A stretch of 64,000 nt of DNA from Rhodothermus marinus (GTDB lineage Bacteria; Bacteroidota; Rhodothermia; Rhodothermales; Rhodothermaceae), in NCBI RefSeq assembly GCF_009936275.1, contig NZ_AP019797.1, forward strand, positions 2,835,890 through 2,899,889, in the 5' to 3' direction. Made by a program: the position numbers and the translations under genes. Shown piece after piece: positions 37,986 through 44,795 of the stretch (position 1 is the first letter of the stretch; the number at the start of each line of letters is the position of its first letter). The notes beneath the pieces are model-generated. The model searched no databases and had not been told where the DNA came from. It saw nothing but the letters and a program-made list of their open reading frames with translations.

Positions 37986-38900
37986 TCAGCGGCGGGCCAG
38001 ATGGCGAAGGATCAGTCCGTGCCGCAGTCCGAAGGGGCTGACGTGGCAGACCTGCCAGCCGCCCCAGGCCATGACTTCGTGCAACAACAGCGCGCCCATC
38101 GGGAGCACATCGGCCCGGCCGGCCAGCAGTTCGGGCCAGAGCGCCCGCACGGCATCGGTCGGCATCTGCAGCAATCGGTCGCGCCAGGCGGCTACGGCGG
38201 CACGCGTCAGCGCAACCGGCGCCGGAAGCGGGAAGCGGCGCGCCTCCAGCGCGGCCAGCGACACGCAGGTACCGGCTACCCCCACCAGCACCGGTGCCGA
38301 CGGCGGAATGATTTCGGCCAGCACTTTCCGGATCTGGCGCTGCGCCTCGGCAACGGCCTCAAGCGGTGGGGGCATTTCCGAAAAACAGCGCTCGGTCAGG
38401 CGCACCGTGCCGAGCGGCAGGCTCCGGGCAAACGTAATGGCGACGGTACCGTCAGGCCGACGCGTGCCCGCCACCAGCTCGGTCGAGCCGCCGCCGATGT
38501 CCACGGCCAGGCAGGGCCCTTCGGGCAGGCCGGGGGCGGCCAGCGCACCGGCCAGGCTCCACCGGGCTTCCTCGTCGCCGGAGATCACTTCGAGCTCGAC
38601 GCCCAGCACTTCGCGCACCACTTCGGCCACAGCCTGCGCGTTGCGGGCTTCGCGCGTGGCACTGGTAGCCGCCACGATGCAGGCTTCGACGGCATGCGCC
38701 CGGAGCGCGTCGCGATAGGCTTCCAGCGTGCGGTGGAGTCGCTCCAGCGCGGCCGGACCGATCGTGCCGGTACGCTCCAGTCCTTCTCCCAACCGCACGA
38801 ACCGCTCGGCCTCGTAGCGGGGTTGCAGCCGCCCGTCGGCCACCTCGGCGATGAGCAGCAGGGCCGTATTGGTGCCCAGGTCGATCGCGGCCAGCCGCAC
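37986..38900 (-). CDS. Ppx/GppA family phosphatase
   Basis: 304 residues, the short form with the two actin-like ASKHA domains only. MRLAAIDLGTNTALLLIAEV at the start contains phosphate-binding loop 1; EVISGDEEARWSLAG and VDIGGGSTEL are the other signatures. Hydrolyses polyphosphate or pppGpp. GTG start at 38900, four bp after the prmA stop, so it is probably cotranscribed with prmA. Confidence 0.92.
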   Translation of the reverse strand: MRLAAIDLGTNTALLLIAEVADGRLQPRYEAERFVRLGEGLERTGTIGPAALERLHRTLEAYRDALRAHAVEACIVAATSATREARNAQAVAEVVREVLGVELEVISGDEEARWSLAGALAAPGLPEGPCLAVDIGGGSTELVAGTRRPDGTVAITFARSLPLGTVRLTERCFSEMPPPLEAVAEAQRQIRKVLAEIIPPSAPVLVGVAGTCVSLAALEARRFPLPAPVALTRAAVAAWRDRLLQMPTDAVRALWPELLAGRADVLPMGALLLHEVMAWGGWQVCHVSPFGLRHGLILRHLARR

Positions 38901-38904
38901 GGTT

Positions 38905-39789
38905 TCAGACCGTTCGTTTCAGCATGACGGCCCACCAGGCGTTCTCCGTCGCCTCGTGGATGGGCTCCAGATCGTGCGCGGCCGCCGTCTCCAGCATCAG
39001 CTCGCGCTCCTCGCGCAGCAGCCCTGAGAGCAGCACGTAGCCGGTGGGACGCACCTTTTCCCGAAAAGCCGGCAGCAACTCGCAGAGCACGCGCCGGTGA
39101 ATGTTGGCGAGAATCAGATCGAAGTCGCGCTCGGGCACCACCTCGATGGATCCCTGTCGGAACTCGACGCGGTCGGCCACGCCGTTGCGGGCGAAGTTTT
39201 CCTGCGCATTTTCGGCCGCCCAGGGGTCGATGTCGAACGCAATGGCCGAGCCGGCCCCCAGCTTCAGCGCGGCAATGGTCAGAATGCCCGTTCCGGTGCC
39301 GGCGTCGAGCACCCGGGCGCCCGGCTCCACGCAGTCGGGCAGCATCTGCAGCAGCAGACGCGTACTTTCGTGGTAGCCGGTGCCGAAGCTCATTTTCGGA
39401 TCGATCTCCAGCACGATGTGCGTGGCGTAGGCCTCGGGCACGGCATGCCAGCTCGGCTTGATCAGAAACGGTCCGACCGCGATGGGCTGCAGCTGCGACT
39501 CCCAGCGGGCGTTCCAGTTTTCCGGCTCGATCGTGCGCACCTCGATCTCGTCGGGCAGTCCCTGACGACGCAGCAGGTCACGCACGGCTTCCCGGACGGC
39601 CGCCCGCCACTGGGAGGCCGGCATGTAGGCTTTCAGACGATCGGGTTCCTCCCAGAAGGCCTCGAAACCCAGCGCGTCGAGCTGAATGACCAGCGGATCG
39701 TGGAGCGCCTCGGGCACGGGCAGCACCACCTCGATCGTCGGTTCACTGATTGAGACGCTCAATCCGGAGTCCCCAGGCTTCGGGTTCAT
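38905..39789 (-). CDS. prmA: Ribosomal protein L11 methyltransferase
   Basis: About 294 residues. N-terminal substrate domain, WNARWESQLQPIAVG, the family segment DPKMSFGTGYHESTRL, SAM motif LDAGTGTGILTIAA, FDIDPWA and the NIHR motif corresponding to the NPPY-like site. Trimethylates L11. The start is uncertain: ATG at 39789 overlaps the upstream repeat protein by 47 bp, ATG at 39822 or TTG at 39762 are possible. The family usually begins just before TIEVVLPV, so a later start is plausible. Confidence 0.93.
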   Translation of the reverse strand: MNPKPGDSGLSVSISEPTIEVVLPVPEALHDPLVIQLDALGFEAFWEEPDRLKAYMPASQWRAAVREAVRDLLRRQGLPDEIEVRTIEPENWNARWESQLQPIAVGPFLIKPSWHAVPEAYATHIVLEIDPKMSFGTGYHESTRLLLQMLPDCVEPGARVLDAGTGTGILTIAALKLGAGSAIAFDIDPWAAENAQENFARNGVADRVEFRQGSIEVVPERDFDLILANIHRRVLCELLPAFREKVRPTGYVLLSGLLREERELMLETAAAHDLEPIHEATENAWWAVMLKRTV

Positions 39790-41497
39790 CGGGTGCCGGA
39801 TATTCGAACTGTCCATAGGCATGCGAAAAATCGGTCCGAAAATGCGCCGTGTAGGAGCCGGGCGGCAGCGTCAGCGTCGTGTCGGCCAGCCGGTTACGCG
39901 CATCACCACCGGCCGGGCGTGTGTGTTCCCAGGTCATCTCCCAGACGACCTCGCCCGTGCCGGTGCGTTCGATCCAGCCGTAATCGTACCGTCCGCTGAT
40001 CGACAGTTCGCCCACCGCCCGGATGCGCAGCCGCGTGGGCCGGTCTAAAGTAAACGCCTGAACGCGATGTTCGTTGTTGCCGACGCGGGTCAGATCGACG
40101 AGCACCCGACCGGCAGGCAGCGGCGCGACGGTCGTGGTCGGCGGGCTTTCGGAAGTCGGCGGGGCCGCCTCGTCCAACAGGTGCAGTGCCTCCGGACCGG
40201 GCGCAAGCACGAAGAGCGTCACGCCCCAGCGCTCGGGGTGCTCGGGTTGTCCGTTGCGCCAGTCGCCGTAGGCATGGGAGTCGTCCGTGCGGTAGTGCAG
40301 CGTGTAGCGGCCGGGCCCGAGCACGAGCGCGGCAATTTCCAGGCGGTTGTTGGGATGGCCGCCGGCCGGGACCGAGTGGCTGCGGCGCATTTCCCAGACC
40401 ACGGCGCCCGTGCTGTCGGTCAGCCAGGCATAGTCGTAGCGGCGATTGCGGGTGCCCAGCTCGCCCAGTGCATAGAGCAGGACTGACACGCTGTCGGCCG
40501 CGACGAAGTCGGCGCGGCGATTTTCATCGTTGCCGACGGCCGTCAGTTGCAGGACAGGCTGCAGCCGCTCCCAGGGATCGAAAAGGGCCACGCTTGTGTC
40601 TTCCGGATGCATCCGCCAGAGCGTCAGCCCCCAGGCGGCCGGATCGAGCGGTGGGTTGAAGCGCCAGTTGCCGAAGGCGTGGGCGTCGTCGGTCTGAAAC
40701 CAGGCGCGATAGAGGCCGGGCGCCAGCGTCAGCGTGTCCAGCACCTGTCGGTTGCCGTGCCAGCCACCGGCCGGGCGGGTCTGCGCGTAGGTCATCTCCC
40801 AGACGCGCCGGCCTTCAGGAAGCTGCTCGATCCATCCGTAGTCGGCCGGCTCCGGATCGAACTCGCCCACCGCATAAAGGCGGACGCGCGTGGGGGCCTG
40901 CACCTCCAGCAGCACCATGCGGGCCATGGCCGAAGGCATGGGCGCGGCGGTCCAGAGCAGCGCCGGTCCGCCGGGAGGCAGTGGCCGATCGTCTTCCAGT
41001 CGAAGCGCGGCCACGTCGTCCAGCACCTGAAAGCGCAGCGTCCAGTCGCGACGACTGCGTGCCCAGGGCGCTTCGGGCGAGAGCCAGGCCCAGAAACCGG
41101 TGCGGCGTGACACGTCGCCCTGCGTGGTGAAAAAGACATCGTAGCGGCCGGGTGCCAGGCGAAGCGTATCGCGCACCCGGAAGCGCAGCGACTCGGTGCC
41201 GGGCGGCGGTTGCATCTGCCAGACGACGTGCCGATCGGCCGTGCGCAGCAGCCAGCCATAGGCGGCCGGTGCCGCTTCTTGCCCTTCGCCCGATCGGGCC
41301 CCGACGCCTTCCAGCACCAACCGGACCGGACGCGCGACCACCAGCACGCGGTGGTACAGGGCACCCGGCGCCATGTCGGCAAACACGACGACCTCGCCGG
41401 CCGGATGCGCCCGTCGCTGGCAGGCACGCAGGCCCACCAGCAACGCCAGCAACACCAGCACGACAAGCTGCCAGCGGATAAACGTGGTTCGCGACAT
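39743..41497 (-). CDS. Membrane-anchored protein with four repeats, unknown function
   Basis: 584 residues. One N-terminal membrane helix (LVVLVLLALLVGL, about 11-23), then four related units of about 115 residues at roughly 45-165, 185-300, 315-432 and 465-582. Each contains Y-x-W-[IL], VW-[EQ]-M, N-R near a TLxLxPGxY strand and, in units 2-4, TDDSHAYGxW. Unit 1 is the most diverged and lacks the last motif. No family recognised; the all-beta repeats suggest a periplasmic binding or structural role. Upstream of and overlapping prmA; a Pro/Thr-rich linker lies at about 445-462. Confidence 0.85.
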   Translation of the reverse strand: MSRTTFIRWQLVVLVLLALLVGLRACQRRAHPAGEVVVFADMAPGALYHRVLVVARPVRLVLEGVGARSGEGQEAAPAAYGWLLRTADRHVVWQMQPPPGTESLRFRVRDTLRLAPGRYDVFFTTQGDVSRRTGFWAWLSPEAPWARSRRDWTLRFQVLDDVAALRLEDDRPLPPGGPALLWTAAPMPSAMARMVLLEVQAPTRVRLYAVGEFDPEPADYGWIEQLPEGRRVWEMTYAQTRPAGGWHGNRQVLDTLTLAPGLYRAWFQTDDAHAFGNWRFNPPLDPAAWGLTLWRMHPEDTSVALFDPWERLQPVLQLTAVGNDENRRADFVAADSVSVLLYALGELGTRNRRYDYAWLTDSTGAVVWEMRRSHSVPAGGHPNNRLEIAALVLGPGRYTLHYRTDDSHAYGDWRNGQPEHPERWGVTLFVLAPGPEALHLLDEAAPPTSESPPTTTVAPLPAGRVLVDLTRVGNNEHRVQAFTLDRPTRLRIRAVGELSISGRYDYGWIERTGTGEVVWEMTWEHTRPAGGDARNRLADTTLTLPPGSYTAHFRTDFSHAYGQFEYPAPDEPEAWGLRIERLNQ

Positions 41498-41705: not shown

Positions 41706-43952
41706 ATGATACGCAACGTGACGATTCCCTCGCTGCAGCAGACGGAGATGCTGCTTCAGCAACGGCGCACCCGCCTGTTTCTGCTGTTGCCGTTCTTCGG
41801 GACCGGCTACATTCTGTCGGTTGTCTTTCATCTGCTGACCTGGAAGTCGGGCACGCCGCCCTCGACCTGGGTCCGTCTGTTCTACTACGACGGGCTCATG
41901 CTGATCACCTACGGCGCGTTGTGGCTGCTGCTCTGGGGCGAGACGCACCAGCGCGGCACCTCCCCGACGCGCACGTTCTGGAGTCTGACCGTCGCCTCGC
42001 TGCTTTTCCTGGGGCTTGGCTATCTGGTGCTGCGCATCGGCCGTCCGTCCGGCGATCTGGCTCTGTCGGCGCCGGTCACCGGCTTCGCCTACGAGACGGG
42101 CGTGCCGCTGACCTGGGCGGCCGTCGTGCAGATGAACGTGCTGGCCCTGCTCGAGGCGCTGCTGGCCTTCTGGCTGCTGCTGCAACTTCGGGGGCTGGTC
42201 CTGTTCAAACGCACGCGCCAGAGCGAGCGGAGCTGGCGCTGGATGCTGATCACCATGGCCGGCTCGGCCCTGCTGGTCGATCTACTCCAGCCGGGCGAAT
42301 TCGTGCTGGCGCTGCTGCTGAGCCTGCCGGTCGGGCTCATGCTGCGCAATGCTTTTCGCGTCGCCTGGATTCTGTATCTGACCTTTCGCCAGAAGCTGCT
42401 GAACCTGGGGCTGACCGTGCTGGCCACCGGCGCACTGTCGGGCACGCTGGCCTTCACCAGCGGCCCGGCCCACGAATACGTCTGGCACTACAGCCCGGCC
42501 CTGAGCAGCTTCGTCAACCTGAGCCTGGCCTTTGGCATTCTCTATCTGGTCACCTCGTTTCTGTCGCTGCTCTTTCACCTGCCCACGACGGGCGCCTTTC
42601 AGCGGAAGGTGGACGAACTGGCCGCGCTCCATGCACTGATGCAGATGGTCAGCCAGGTGTTCGACGTGGAGCGGCTGACCGAGACGATCGTCCGGCTACC
42701 GGTCGAAGCCGGCGTGGCGCAGGCCGCCTGGCTGGCCCTGCCGGACTTTCAGACGACGTTCCGGCCCCGGATCGTGGCAGCTTACAACCTGCCGGAAGGT
42801 CAGACCCCGGAGGCGCTCGTGGACGTCGAAGCACTCTATCAGGAGGTGGCCACGCGGCGACAGTTTCTGTTGCTGGAGCAGGCGCTGACCGATCACCGGG
42901 TGCGGGCCCGGCCGGAGCACGGCATCGGCAGCCTGCTGGTCGTGCCGCTGATTGCCCGCAACGAGCTGCTGGGTGTGCTGTTCGTCACGCGCGAGGTGGC
43001 CTACGGCTTCGAACAGGACGACATTGAGGCCATCTCGGTGTTTGCCACGCAGGCGGCCCTCGCCCTCGACAACGCCCGCCTGCTCAGCGAACGTCTGGAA
43101 AAAGAGCGCCTGGCACGCGAGCTGGCCATCGCACGCGACGTGCAGCGCCGCCTGCTCCCCCAGCAACTTCCCCGACTTCCCGGCCTGCAGATCGTGGCCT
43201 CCAGCGTCCCGGCCCAGGAAGTGGGCGGCGACTACTACGACCTGCTCCAGCTCGACGACCATCGGCTGGCCTTCATCGTGGCCGACGTGGCCGGCAAGGG
43301 GACCTCGGCCGCCTTCTACATGGCCGAACTGCAGGGCATCTTCCGGGCTCTGAGTCCGCTCAACCCCGATCCGGTGGTTTTTCTGACGCAGGCCAATCAG
43401 GCGCTCTTCGAAACACTGGAGCGTAAGGCGTTCATCTCGGCCGTTTATGGCGTGTTCGATGTGGCAAAAGGCATGGTGACGCTGGCCCGCGCCGGCCATC
43501 CGCCCCCGATTCTCCTGCGCCCACACGCACCGCCGCGTCTGCTTCGACTCCAGGGATTGGGGCTGGGACTGGACCGGGGCGAACTCTTCCGCCGCACGCT
43601 GCAGCCCTGTACGCTCTCGCTTCAGGCCGGCGACCGCCTGCTGCTGTACACCGACGGCCTGATCGAAAGCCGCAACGACCGGGGCGAAGCCTTCGGCTAC
43701 GATCGTCTGCTCCAGACCCTCGAAGCGCACGCACGGGACACCGCCGTGTCGTTGCACCGCCATCTACTCGAAGCGCTGGCGCAGTTTACCGGCCATCCCG
43801 CCTATGATGACGACCTGACCCTTGTTATCTTCCAGTGGCAGGAAGTGCCGATGCTTCAGGAAGCGCGGGACCGTCAGGACATGCAGGCGCAGACCGCCGG
43901 AGCGTCGGCCTCGACCGCCCAACCCTCGCAGCCTTCGAAGCAAGCGCCATGA
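41706..43952 (+). CDS. Membrane GAF-SpoIIE (PP2C) phosphatase
   Basis: 748 residues. About eight membrane helices (25-305), a GAF-like domain (about 320-470; GSLLVVPLIARNELLGVLFV) and a coiled linker leading to a SpoIIE/RsbU PP2C domain (about 480-720). In the latter VPAQEVGGDYYDL and VADVAGKGTSAA supply metal-binding Asp, LARAGHPPP is the mid motif and YDDDLTLV the end. Should dephosphorylate the STAS protein encoded next, in response to a membrane or GAF signal. The stop overlaps the STAS gene (ATGA). The C-terminal tail is Ala/Ser/Gln-rich. Confidence 0.93.
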   Translation: MIRNVTIPSLQQTEMLLQQRRTRLFLLLPFFGTGYILSVVFHLLTWKSGTPPSTWVRLFYYDGLMLITYGALWLLLWGETHQRGTSPTRTFWSLTVASLLFLGLGYLVLRIGRPSGDLALSAPVTGFAYETGVPLTWAAVVQMNVLALLEALLAFWLLLQLRGLVLFKRTRQSERSWRWMLITMAGSALLVDLLQPGEFVLALLLSLPVGLMLRNAFRVAWILYLTFRQKLLNLGLTVLATGALSGTLAFTSGPAHEYVWHYSPALSSFVNLSLAFGILYLVTSFLSLLFHLPTTGAFQRKVDELAALHALMQMVSQVFDVERLTETIVRLPVEAGVAQAAWLALPDFQTTFRPRIVAAYNLPEGQTPEALVDVEALYQEVATRRQFLLLEQALTDHRVRARPEHGIGSLLVVPLIARNELLGVLFVTREVAYGFEQDDIEAISVFATQAALALDNARLLSERLEKERLARELAIARDVQRRLLPQQLPRLPGLQIVASSVPAQEVGGDYYDLLQLDDHRLAFIVADVAGKGTSAAFYMAELQGIFRALSPLNPDPVVFLTQANQALFETLERKAFISAVYGVFDVAKGMVTLARAGHPPPILLRPHAPPRLLRLQGLGLGLDRGELFRRTLQPCTLSLQAGDRLLLYTDGLIESRNDRGEAFGYDRLLQTLEAHARDTAVSLHRHLLEALAQFTGHPAYDDDLTLVIFQWQEVPMLQEARDRQDMQAQTAGASASTAQPSQPSKQAP

Positions 43953-44323
43953 GCAATTTTTCGGTAGGATTCCGACAGCACGACGGCGTGCAGATTCTGG
44001 ATCTGCACGGAGAACTCGACGCGCACACGGCTCCGGAGCTGGAGGCCGCCCTACAACAGTGCCTGCAGAACGGCCACTACAACATTTTGATCAACGGGCG
44101 CGACCTGGACTACATCTCCAGCGCCGGGCTGGGCGTGTTTATGGCCTACATCGAAGAGATCCGCGAGAAAGGCGGTGATCTGAAGATTGCCGAACTCAAA
44201 CCCGGCGTGTACAACGTGTTCGACCTGCTGGGTTTTCCGCTGCTGTTCGACATTCTGCCCTCGGAAACCGAAGCCCTGGAGCGTTTCGCCCGGGGCGAAC
44301 GCCCGGCGCTTCCATCCTCCTGA
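43949..44323 (+). CDS. STAS-domain anti-sigma factor antagonist
   Basis: 124 residues, one STAS domain. VQILDLHGELDAHTAPELE and the phosphorylation site in LDYISSAGLGVFM (Ser near residue 56) mark an RsbV/SpoIIAA-type antagonist. ATGA overlap with the phosphatase gene fixes the start. Partner of the RsbW-like kinase 16 bp downstream. Confidence 0.93.
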   Translation: MSNFSVGFRQHDGVQILDLHGELDAHTAPELEAALQQCLQNGHYNILINGRDLDYISSAGLGVFMAYIEEIREKGGDLKIAELKPGVYNVFDLLGFPLLFDILPSETEALERFARGERPALPSS

Positions 44324-44339: not shown

Positions 44340-44795
44340 GTGAGCCGCGCGCTTTACACCCTCCGGATTCCCAGCTCGACGCGCTACCTGCAGACGGTAC
44401 GGCGCTTCGTGGAGCGGCATGCTCGCGCGGCCGGCCTTTCGGAGGAGGCGATCGAGCGGCTCAAACTGGCCGTCGATGAAGCCTGCACGAACATCATCAA
44501 ACACGCCTACAAGGGACGTCCGGACCGGCCCATCGACGTGGCCGTGCTGCTCGAGCCGGACCGCTTCGTCGTACGCATCCGCGACCAGGGCGAAGCGTTC
44601 GATCCGACCCGCTACCGCGCGCCCGATCTGCGCACGCTCATCCGGAAGCGTCAGGGCGGCGGTCTGGGCGTGCGGCTGATCCATCAGCTCATGGACGAGG
44701 TCACCTACCGGAGCCAGGGACGCTACAACGAAGTGCAGCTCATCAAATACCTGACCCCTTCCGACACGGCCCTGCCGCCCTCGGCCAGCGCCTGA
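44340..44795 (+). CDS. RsbW-like anti-sigma serine kinase
   Basis: 151 residues, HATPase_c_2 type. N box ERLKLAVDEACTNIIKHAY, G1 region IRDQGEAFDP and G2 RQGGGLGVRLIHQLMDEVTY. It would phosphorylate the STAS protein and bind a sigma factor or other target. GTG start. No sigma factor of the SigB type is in the window, so the regulated target is unknown. Ends 1 bp before the convergent ubiE. Confidence 0.93.
   Translation: MSRALYTLRIPSSTRYLQTVRRFVERHARAAGLSEEAIERLKLAVDEACTNIIKHAYKGRPDRPIDVAVLLEPDRFVVRIRDQGEAFDPTRYRAPDLRTLIRKRQGGGLGVRLIHQLMDEVTYRSQGRYNEVQLIKYLTPSDTALPPSASA

Follow-up and report, generated by a model that had tools for sequence, protein, structure and literature searches.

A widely conserved, undescribed family of tandem jelly-roll units: a candidate metal-assisted ligand-binding protein of the envelope in Rhodothermus marinus

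We have identified in the window, i.e. the whole 64,000-nucleotide stretch of Rhodothermus marinus DNA that was analysed, a gene for an anchored protein (P0001) of four repeated units that belongs to a real, widely conserved and undescribed family. The best explanation we can offer, which we hold at about an even chance, is that three of these units act as modules binding a ligand with the help of a metal at the periplasmic face, and that this binding feeds envelope signalling. The gene and its surroundings are as follows.

37986..38900, minus strand: Ppx/GppA exopolyphosphatase gene (Pfam Ppx-GppA 1.2e-49)
38905..39822, minus strand: prmA, longest ORF (Pfam PrmA 3e-56, NCBIfam NF001785; the profile match begins at about residue 30)
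39743..41497, minus strand: gene of the four-unit anchored protein (P0001, 584 aa + stop), an ORF coinciding exactly with the span named in the earlier note and with homologues in relatives
39761..40093, minus strand: unit 4, residues 469-579, canonical; triad E497, D505, D556
40121..40162, minus strand: linker between units 3 and 4, residues 446-459, of low confidence (pLDDT < 50)
40214..40546, minus strand: unit 3, residues 318-428, canonical; triad E346, D355, D405
40619..40942, minus strand: unit 2, residues 186-293, canonical; triad E212, D219, D270
41060..41377, minus strand: unit 1, residues 41-146, a degenerate copy that retains the residues of the fold but neither the acidic triad nor TDxSH
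41420..41494, minus strand: N-terminal membrane helix, residues 2-26, a probable signal anchor (AlphaFold2 helix; basic N-terminus and hydrophobic stretch in relatives)
41706..43952, plus strand: divergent gene with an N-terminal hydrophobic multi-span region, GAF and SpoIIE (PP2C-type) phosphatase; adjacent in most of the order
43949..44323, plus strand: STAS (anti-sigma-factor antagonist-like) gene of the same cluster, kept beside the SpoIIE gene (sequence reading and homologue clustering; start at 43949 picked by homologue alignment)
44340..44795, plus strand: HATPase (RsbW-like anti-sigma kinase) gene of the same cluster, kept beside the SpoIIE and STAS genes (sequence reading and homologue clustering)

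The repeats, which the earlier note had described from the DNA as four motif-bearing copies, are real. The units, about 111 residues long, share 37-45% pairwise identity, and an iterated profile recovers units 1 to 4 with domain E-values of 2e-21, 4e-39, 8e-38 and 8e-45, which excludes chance as their origin. The full set of motifs (Y-x-W, VWEM, PAGG, N-R and TDxSHAYG), however, is found only in units 2-4. Unit 1 retains the Y-x-W / VW-x-M stretch (as AYGW and VWQM), L-x-PG-x-Y and the fold, and is devoid of PAGG, N-R, TDDSHAYG and all three acidic residues, the first units of homologues being generally alike; profile comparison still joins canonical and first units with a probability of 99.6% (E 1e-24). 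P0001 should be read as three functional-looking copies and one degenerate copy.

The description of the protein as anchored is also supported: AlphaFold2 models residues 2-26 as a hydrophobic helix after a basic start, and in close relatives and other Rhodothermales the N-terminus is basic, with a hydrophobic stretch behind it. The cysteine C26, in a lipobox-like LRAC, is kept within the genus and absent from most other Rhodothermales read, so that the Rhodothermales N-termini read do not have the conserved lipobox cysteine behind the hydrophobic stretch that is expected of a bacterial lipoprotein. Because this cysteine varies outside the genus, an anchor that spans the membrane is more likely than a lipid one. 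C26 is the only cysteine of P0001, the four units being cysteine-free.

That the protein matched no known family was confirmed by every search. P0001 had no match in Pfam-A at E<=10 and a single, meaningless one in NCBIfam, and no match to PDB sequences was obtained by single-protein phmmer or by profile A2. Scattered weak matches were all that was returned when 28 diverse units were compared with Pfam and 43 units with NCBIfam (A5), the latter being taken as noise, and no unit scored above any curated cut-off of Pfam-A or NCBIfam. A profile built from the units finds the family across phyla, again with no clear match to a known domain family. Three candidates were discarded on the way: DUF5013 (E 0.007), seen in one of the 28 units, and AMPK1_CBM (best E 0.074, non-significant), seen in three, were regarded as noise, while a weak match of residues 266-300 to an ORF of ~1220-1350 aa in many genomes was put down to chance, the ORF of the own genome resembling 2-oxoglutarate dehydrogenase E1.

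AlphaFold2 modelled the whole of P0001 with a mean pLDDT of 91.5 and a pTM of 0.71 (57 family members), and unit 4 alone as a confident beta-sandwich of eight strands (pLDDT 95.7, pTM 0.88; 43 sequences). Searched against PDB folds with Foldseek, the full-length model ranked CUB proteins first (neuropilin-2 at E 2.8e-9, then C1r/C1s and MASP-2), with low TM-scores that are probably due to a differing tandem arrangement. Unit 4 alone matched jelly rolls generally at similar E-values, among them viral heads, the C1r/C1s CUB, the collagenase CBD and p24 GOLD; C1r/C1s gave the top query-normalised TM-score listed (0.53), 1nqj a TM-score of 0.52 on the target, and DeCLIC (9eva) an E-value of 4.8e-4. 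A fold search of BFVD returned generic jelly rolls only. It is safe to state that the unit is predicted to be a jelly-roll beta-sandwich without a close solved relative; the fold search gave general jelly-roll matches only (CUB, collagenase CBD/PPC, GOLD).

Within this fold, a candidate functional site can be told apart from the residues that maintain the structure. In 141 four-unit proteins, the full acidic triad (E-x~7-D...D-x-S/H, profile positions E28, D37 and D88) was counted in 131/141 second, 141/141 third and 140/141 fourth units, and in all 14 of the 14 units borne by sensor proteins; among first units it was found in 0/141, with 138/141 having none of the three acids. N67, G62, G63 and H91 track the presence of the triad, whereas the fold positions W51, L76, G79 and Y81 are conserved in every unit class, first units included. 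The retention or loss of the triad as a set, while fold residues persist, argues for a shared functional site. Judged from sequence, this triad may well bind a divalent metal, most likely Ca2+. The spacing from E to D is 8 in 138/141 fourth units, and that from D to D is 50-51. In CUB1 of C1s, Glu45, Tyr52, Asp53, Asp98 and Ser100 hold Ca2+ and grip a lysine of C1q (PMC4222235), and the pattern E-x6-Y-D and D-x-S of the unit equals the spacing of this site, as a pattern of residues only; an E-to-D spacing of 8 is also found in the cubilin and PCPE CUBs. Bacterial periplasmic jelly rolls with Ca2+ sites are exemplified by the N-terminal lobes of DeCLIC (PMC12664993).

Perhaps the unit is a genuine CUB (or PPC/GOLD) domain that has diverged very far, a reading of its ancestry that is compatible with our preferred explanation and that we consider possible, if doubtful. 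The rank of CUB proteins among the matches of the full-length model, the TM-score of unit 4 against C1r/C1s and the shared E-x6-YD ... D-x-S pattern speak for it. On the other hand, profile-profile comparison (hhalign) gave probabilities of 0.6-4.6% for CUB and 0.8% for PPC, both slightly above reversed controls and non-significant, Pfam CUB, PPC and GOLD gave no match in any scanned unit (E<=10 for P0001), and unrelated jelly rolls match unit 4 at similar E-values. The PF00431 profile finds nothing across the own genome. It is possible that the likeness to the CUB site arose through convergence. A bolder proposal, which we hold to be rather improbable, is that the unit is the bacterial counterpart of the Ca2+-binding CUB, old in the FCB phyla, with the same Glu/Tyr-Asp/Asp-x-Ser metal site gripping a basic residue on a ligand in the envelope; it would work on its own as a receptor with three sites and also as a plug-in input for sensor kinases and SpoIIE phosphatases.

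Homologues of the four-unit protein were present in 53 of 60 relatives, in 43 of the 60 genomes of a Zixibacteria sample, and the unit in 66 of 394 genomes of a wider phylum sample. Scanning the genomes of 84,980 species gave 161 confirmed stretches, 80 of which were retained for analysis; these came from Rhodothermales, Ignavibacteria, Calditrichota, Zixibacteria, KSB1, Marinimicrobia, Latescibacterota, Gemmatimonadota and Eisenbacteria, plus a few doubtful bins, and nearly all follow the plan of one degenerate unit followed by three canonical ones. The family is thereby spread over the FCB group of bacteria. Within the order of R. marinus, family f15 has a protein short by one unit, and the six genomes of family f13 (G018, G028, G037, G043, G049 and G055) have none. 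Since the search of viral contigs and plasmids revealed no relatives, there is no sign of a mobile element.

In a tree of 87 four-unit proteins (quick search, midpoint root), the protein of the window groups with other anchored copies in a clade of Rhodothermales (support 100), and all remaining copies fall on the far side of a branch that likewise has support 100, with a signal-peptide-like start wherever the N-terminus was read. Copies of this second, exported-like kind occur in some Rhodothermales as well (L154, L124, L185). Some Rhodothermales (L124, L154/L026, L185/L043, L042, L044 and L045) have a further four-unit paralogue elsewhere in the genome, and those of these paralogues that were placed in the tree cluster with exported copies of other phyla. 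Zixibacteria copies form one group (support 99) and those of Calditrichota nearly so; this clustering by phylum points to an old protein handed down mainly by vertical descent. The protein is usually present in a single copy.

The main support for a role in ligand binding or sensing comes from single units inserted within periplasmic sensor propellers, in proteins of ~1200-1520 residues. A Reg_prop propeller, the unit and Y_Y_Y are followed by SpoIIE in L097 (2549-6307), which sits in a gene run HATPase-STAS-SpoIIE-sensor, by HisKA_3 in L098, and by HisKA/HATPase in L099 (2989-6957), and L241 (608-5164) reads as a complete hybrid two-component protein, its domains beyond the unit being read from sequence. 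In L098 and L241 the insertion lies at or before residue ~250, and in L097 and L099 near 525-550, which suggests repeated insertion or rearrangement of the propeller; across these four proteins the unit is seen at no fewer than two (at least 2) different places of the Reg_prop propeller. Elsewhere, L116 (271-1830) carries a unit at its C-terminus, joined to a PF00144 beta-lactamase-like serine hydrolase. The propeller/Y_Y_Y regions of Bacteroides hybrid two-component proteins directly bind inducing oligosaccharides (PMC3243724). The ligand binding that had been proposed from motif conservation is hence supported indirectly, by the triad being kept or lost as a set and by the placing of the unit in periplasmic sensor regions.

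The same observations could be read as those of a glycan-binding or adhesive protein of the surface or periplasm, with three carbohydrate-binding jelly rolls for exopolysaccharide, peptidoglycan or a host or substrate glycan, which would itself take no part in signalling. Carbohydrate-binding modules typically have jelly-roll folds, the units have conserved Trp residues, the unit-carrying propeller sensors are of the oligosaccharide-binding type (PMC3243724), and the weak, non-significant AMPK1_CBM matches point in the same direction. We nevertheless find it unlikely, as the recurrent identified neighbours have no association with polysaccharide utilisation or glycoside hydrolases, and the single-copy, old and mainly inherited spread is unlike that of fast-evolving glycan binders.

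Neighbouring genes vary between phyla and no partner is universal. Of the 20 loci with an Omp85/DUF5686-like gene, most have it in a tight operon with the four-unit gene, the gaps being mostly of -4 to 26 bases, and such operons occur in Ignavibacteria and Calditrichota; an OMP_b-brl gene adjoins the four-unit gene in some Zixibacteria. In Calditrichota, an operon of Omp85/DUF5686-like barrel, four-unit protein and DUF4097 toastrack with very short gaps of -4 to 26 bases (L119, L126, L158, L163, L184, L193) looks like an undescribed envelope system, toastrack domains having been linked to envelope-stress systems (PMC11237479). In many Zixibacteria a PmbA/TldD metallopeptidase pair was observed upstream of the four-unit gene, in 10 loci (L123, L128, L131, L147 and others). 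These barrel and toastrack operons, together with the adjoining OMP_b-brl genes, would suit an accessory of envelope assembly, i.e. a periplasmic scaffold that works with an Omp85-type barrel (and toastrack) in building or stabilising the outer membrane. Yet no Omp85-like neighbour was seen in Rhodothermales or in most Zixibacteria, and the insertion of the unit in sensor proteins speaks for ligand input, making this explanation improbable in our judgement.

In Rhodothermales, prmA, ppx, Mrp and NifU-like genes run in the same direction as the four-unit gene, and the membrane SpoIIE-phosphatase gene, behind which STAS and HATPase follow, is divergent from it. The 3′ end of the four-unit gene shares 80 bases (39743-39822) with the longest prmA ORF, and the true prmA start is probably further downstream; the overlap is of 4 bases in the relatives L024, L027 and L035. 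The coupling to prmA and ppx that had been claimed was borne out here and in many members of the order, and was lost outside it, where the neighbours differ; a function by association with these genes was dropped on this ground. PrmA is cytosolic. A housekeeping partnership in ribosomal protein methylation or polyphosphate turnover, suggested by the overlapping, co-directional prmA and ppx, is hardly credible, given that several families have no prmA between the four-unit gene and ppx or Mrp, that the linkage was not found outside the order, that those f13 genomes that were searched for prmA keep it without having the four-unit protein, and that this protein is extracytoplasmic.

The SpoIIE-STAS-kinase cluster and, elsewhere, the Omp85/toastrack genes are more telling neighbours than prmA and ppx. 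The four-unit protein and the SpoIIE orthologue occur together in 51 of the 60 relatives and are both absent from 6 (all f13); two have the protein without SpoIIE (G009 and G041) and one the reverse (G034); in G012 and family f3 the two genes are not adjacent. In the loci of G009 and G041 (L027, L048), the SpoIIE gene is gone and STAS and HATPase still lie beside the four-unit gene. The co-loss in f13 may be a single event, so that the co-occurrence with SpoIIE is weak evidence of coupling, and synteny conserved inside one order may be mere inheritance. An independent case is L097, whose unit-bearing sensor stands in a HATPase-STAS-SpoIIE run. The strongly hydrophobic N-terminus of the SpoIIE/GAF protein (window 41706-42500, ~265 aa) has no Pfam match, and may be a membrane sensor region, so far undescribed, that is conserved across the order.

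Returning to metal-assisted ligand binding that feeds envelope signalling, P0001 would be an inner-membrane-anchored periplasmic protein of four jelly-roll modules. In its three canonical modules, the triad of Glu, Asp and Asp, together with the adjacent Ser/His and the AGG-x-x-x-N-R loop, may bind a divalent metal, most likely Ca2+, and via this metal the modules could hold an envelope ligand, be it a basic side chain of a protein partner, a glycan or a peptide, with the first module serving as a spacer or docking module. A signalling partner in the membrane would sense this binding. In this order the most plausible candidate is the membrane SpoIIE phosphatase of the divergent gene, which would act on the STAS/HATPase pair; in other phyla the part could fall to sensor kinases or to envelope proteins of the Omp85/toastrack kind.

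A four-unit protein that ranges from Rhodothermota to Zixibacteria, Calditrichota and Gemmatimonadota and is absent from Pfam and NCBIfam seems to belong to the basic biology of the envelope in these phyla. The units plugged into propeller sensors offer a route to the signal perceived by some FCB sensor proteins, and the conserved triad is a direct and cheap handle on metal and ligand binding.

Among known systems, the unit resembles in outline CUB (PF00431; C1r/C1s, MASPs, cubilin), being likewise, as predicted, a jelly-roll beta-sandwich of ~110 residues, often in tandem, with a Glu at a strand end, Tyr-Asp ~8 residues on and Asp-x-Ser past the penultimate strand. It differs from CUB in having no significant sequence-profile similarity and in its conserved AGG-x-x-x-N-R and WN..P..WG motifs, which are missing from CUB; and, while most animal CUBs have conserved disulfide bridges, disulfides are absent from the unit. 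PPC, or the bacterial collagenase collagen-binding domain (PF04151), and the DeCLIC N-terminal lobes are bacterial extracytoplasmic jelly rolls of moderate fold similarity, several with Ca2+ sites, but their conserved residues are other ones, profile similarity is not significant, and no protease or ion channel is attached to the unit. The divergent SpoIIE/STAS/HATPase cluster of this order resembles the RsbU-RsbV-RsbW partner-switching modules, of which the four-unit protein itself is no known component. Finally, although the protein of the window lacks a propeller, Y_Y_Y and a cytoplasmic output domain, its unit is shared with some Reg_prop/Y_Y_Y hybrid two-component and SpoIIE sensors (PF07494, PF07495), which hold one copy of it in their periplasmic propeller.
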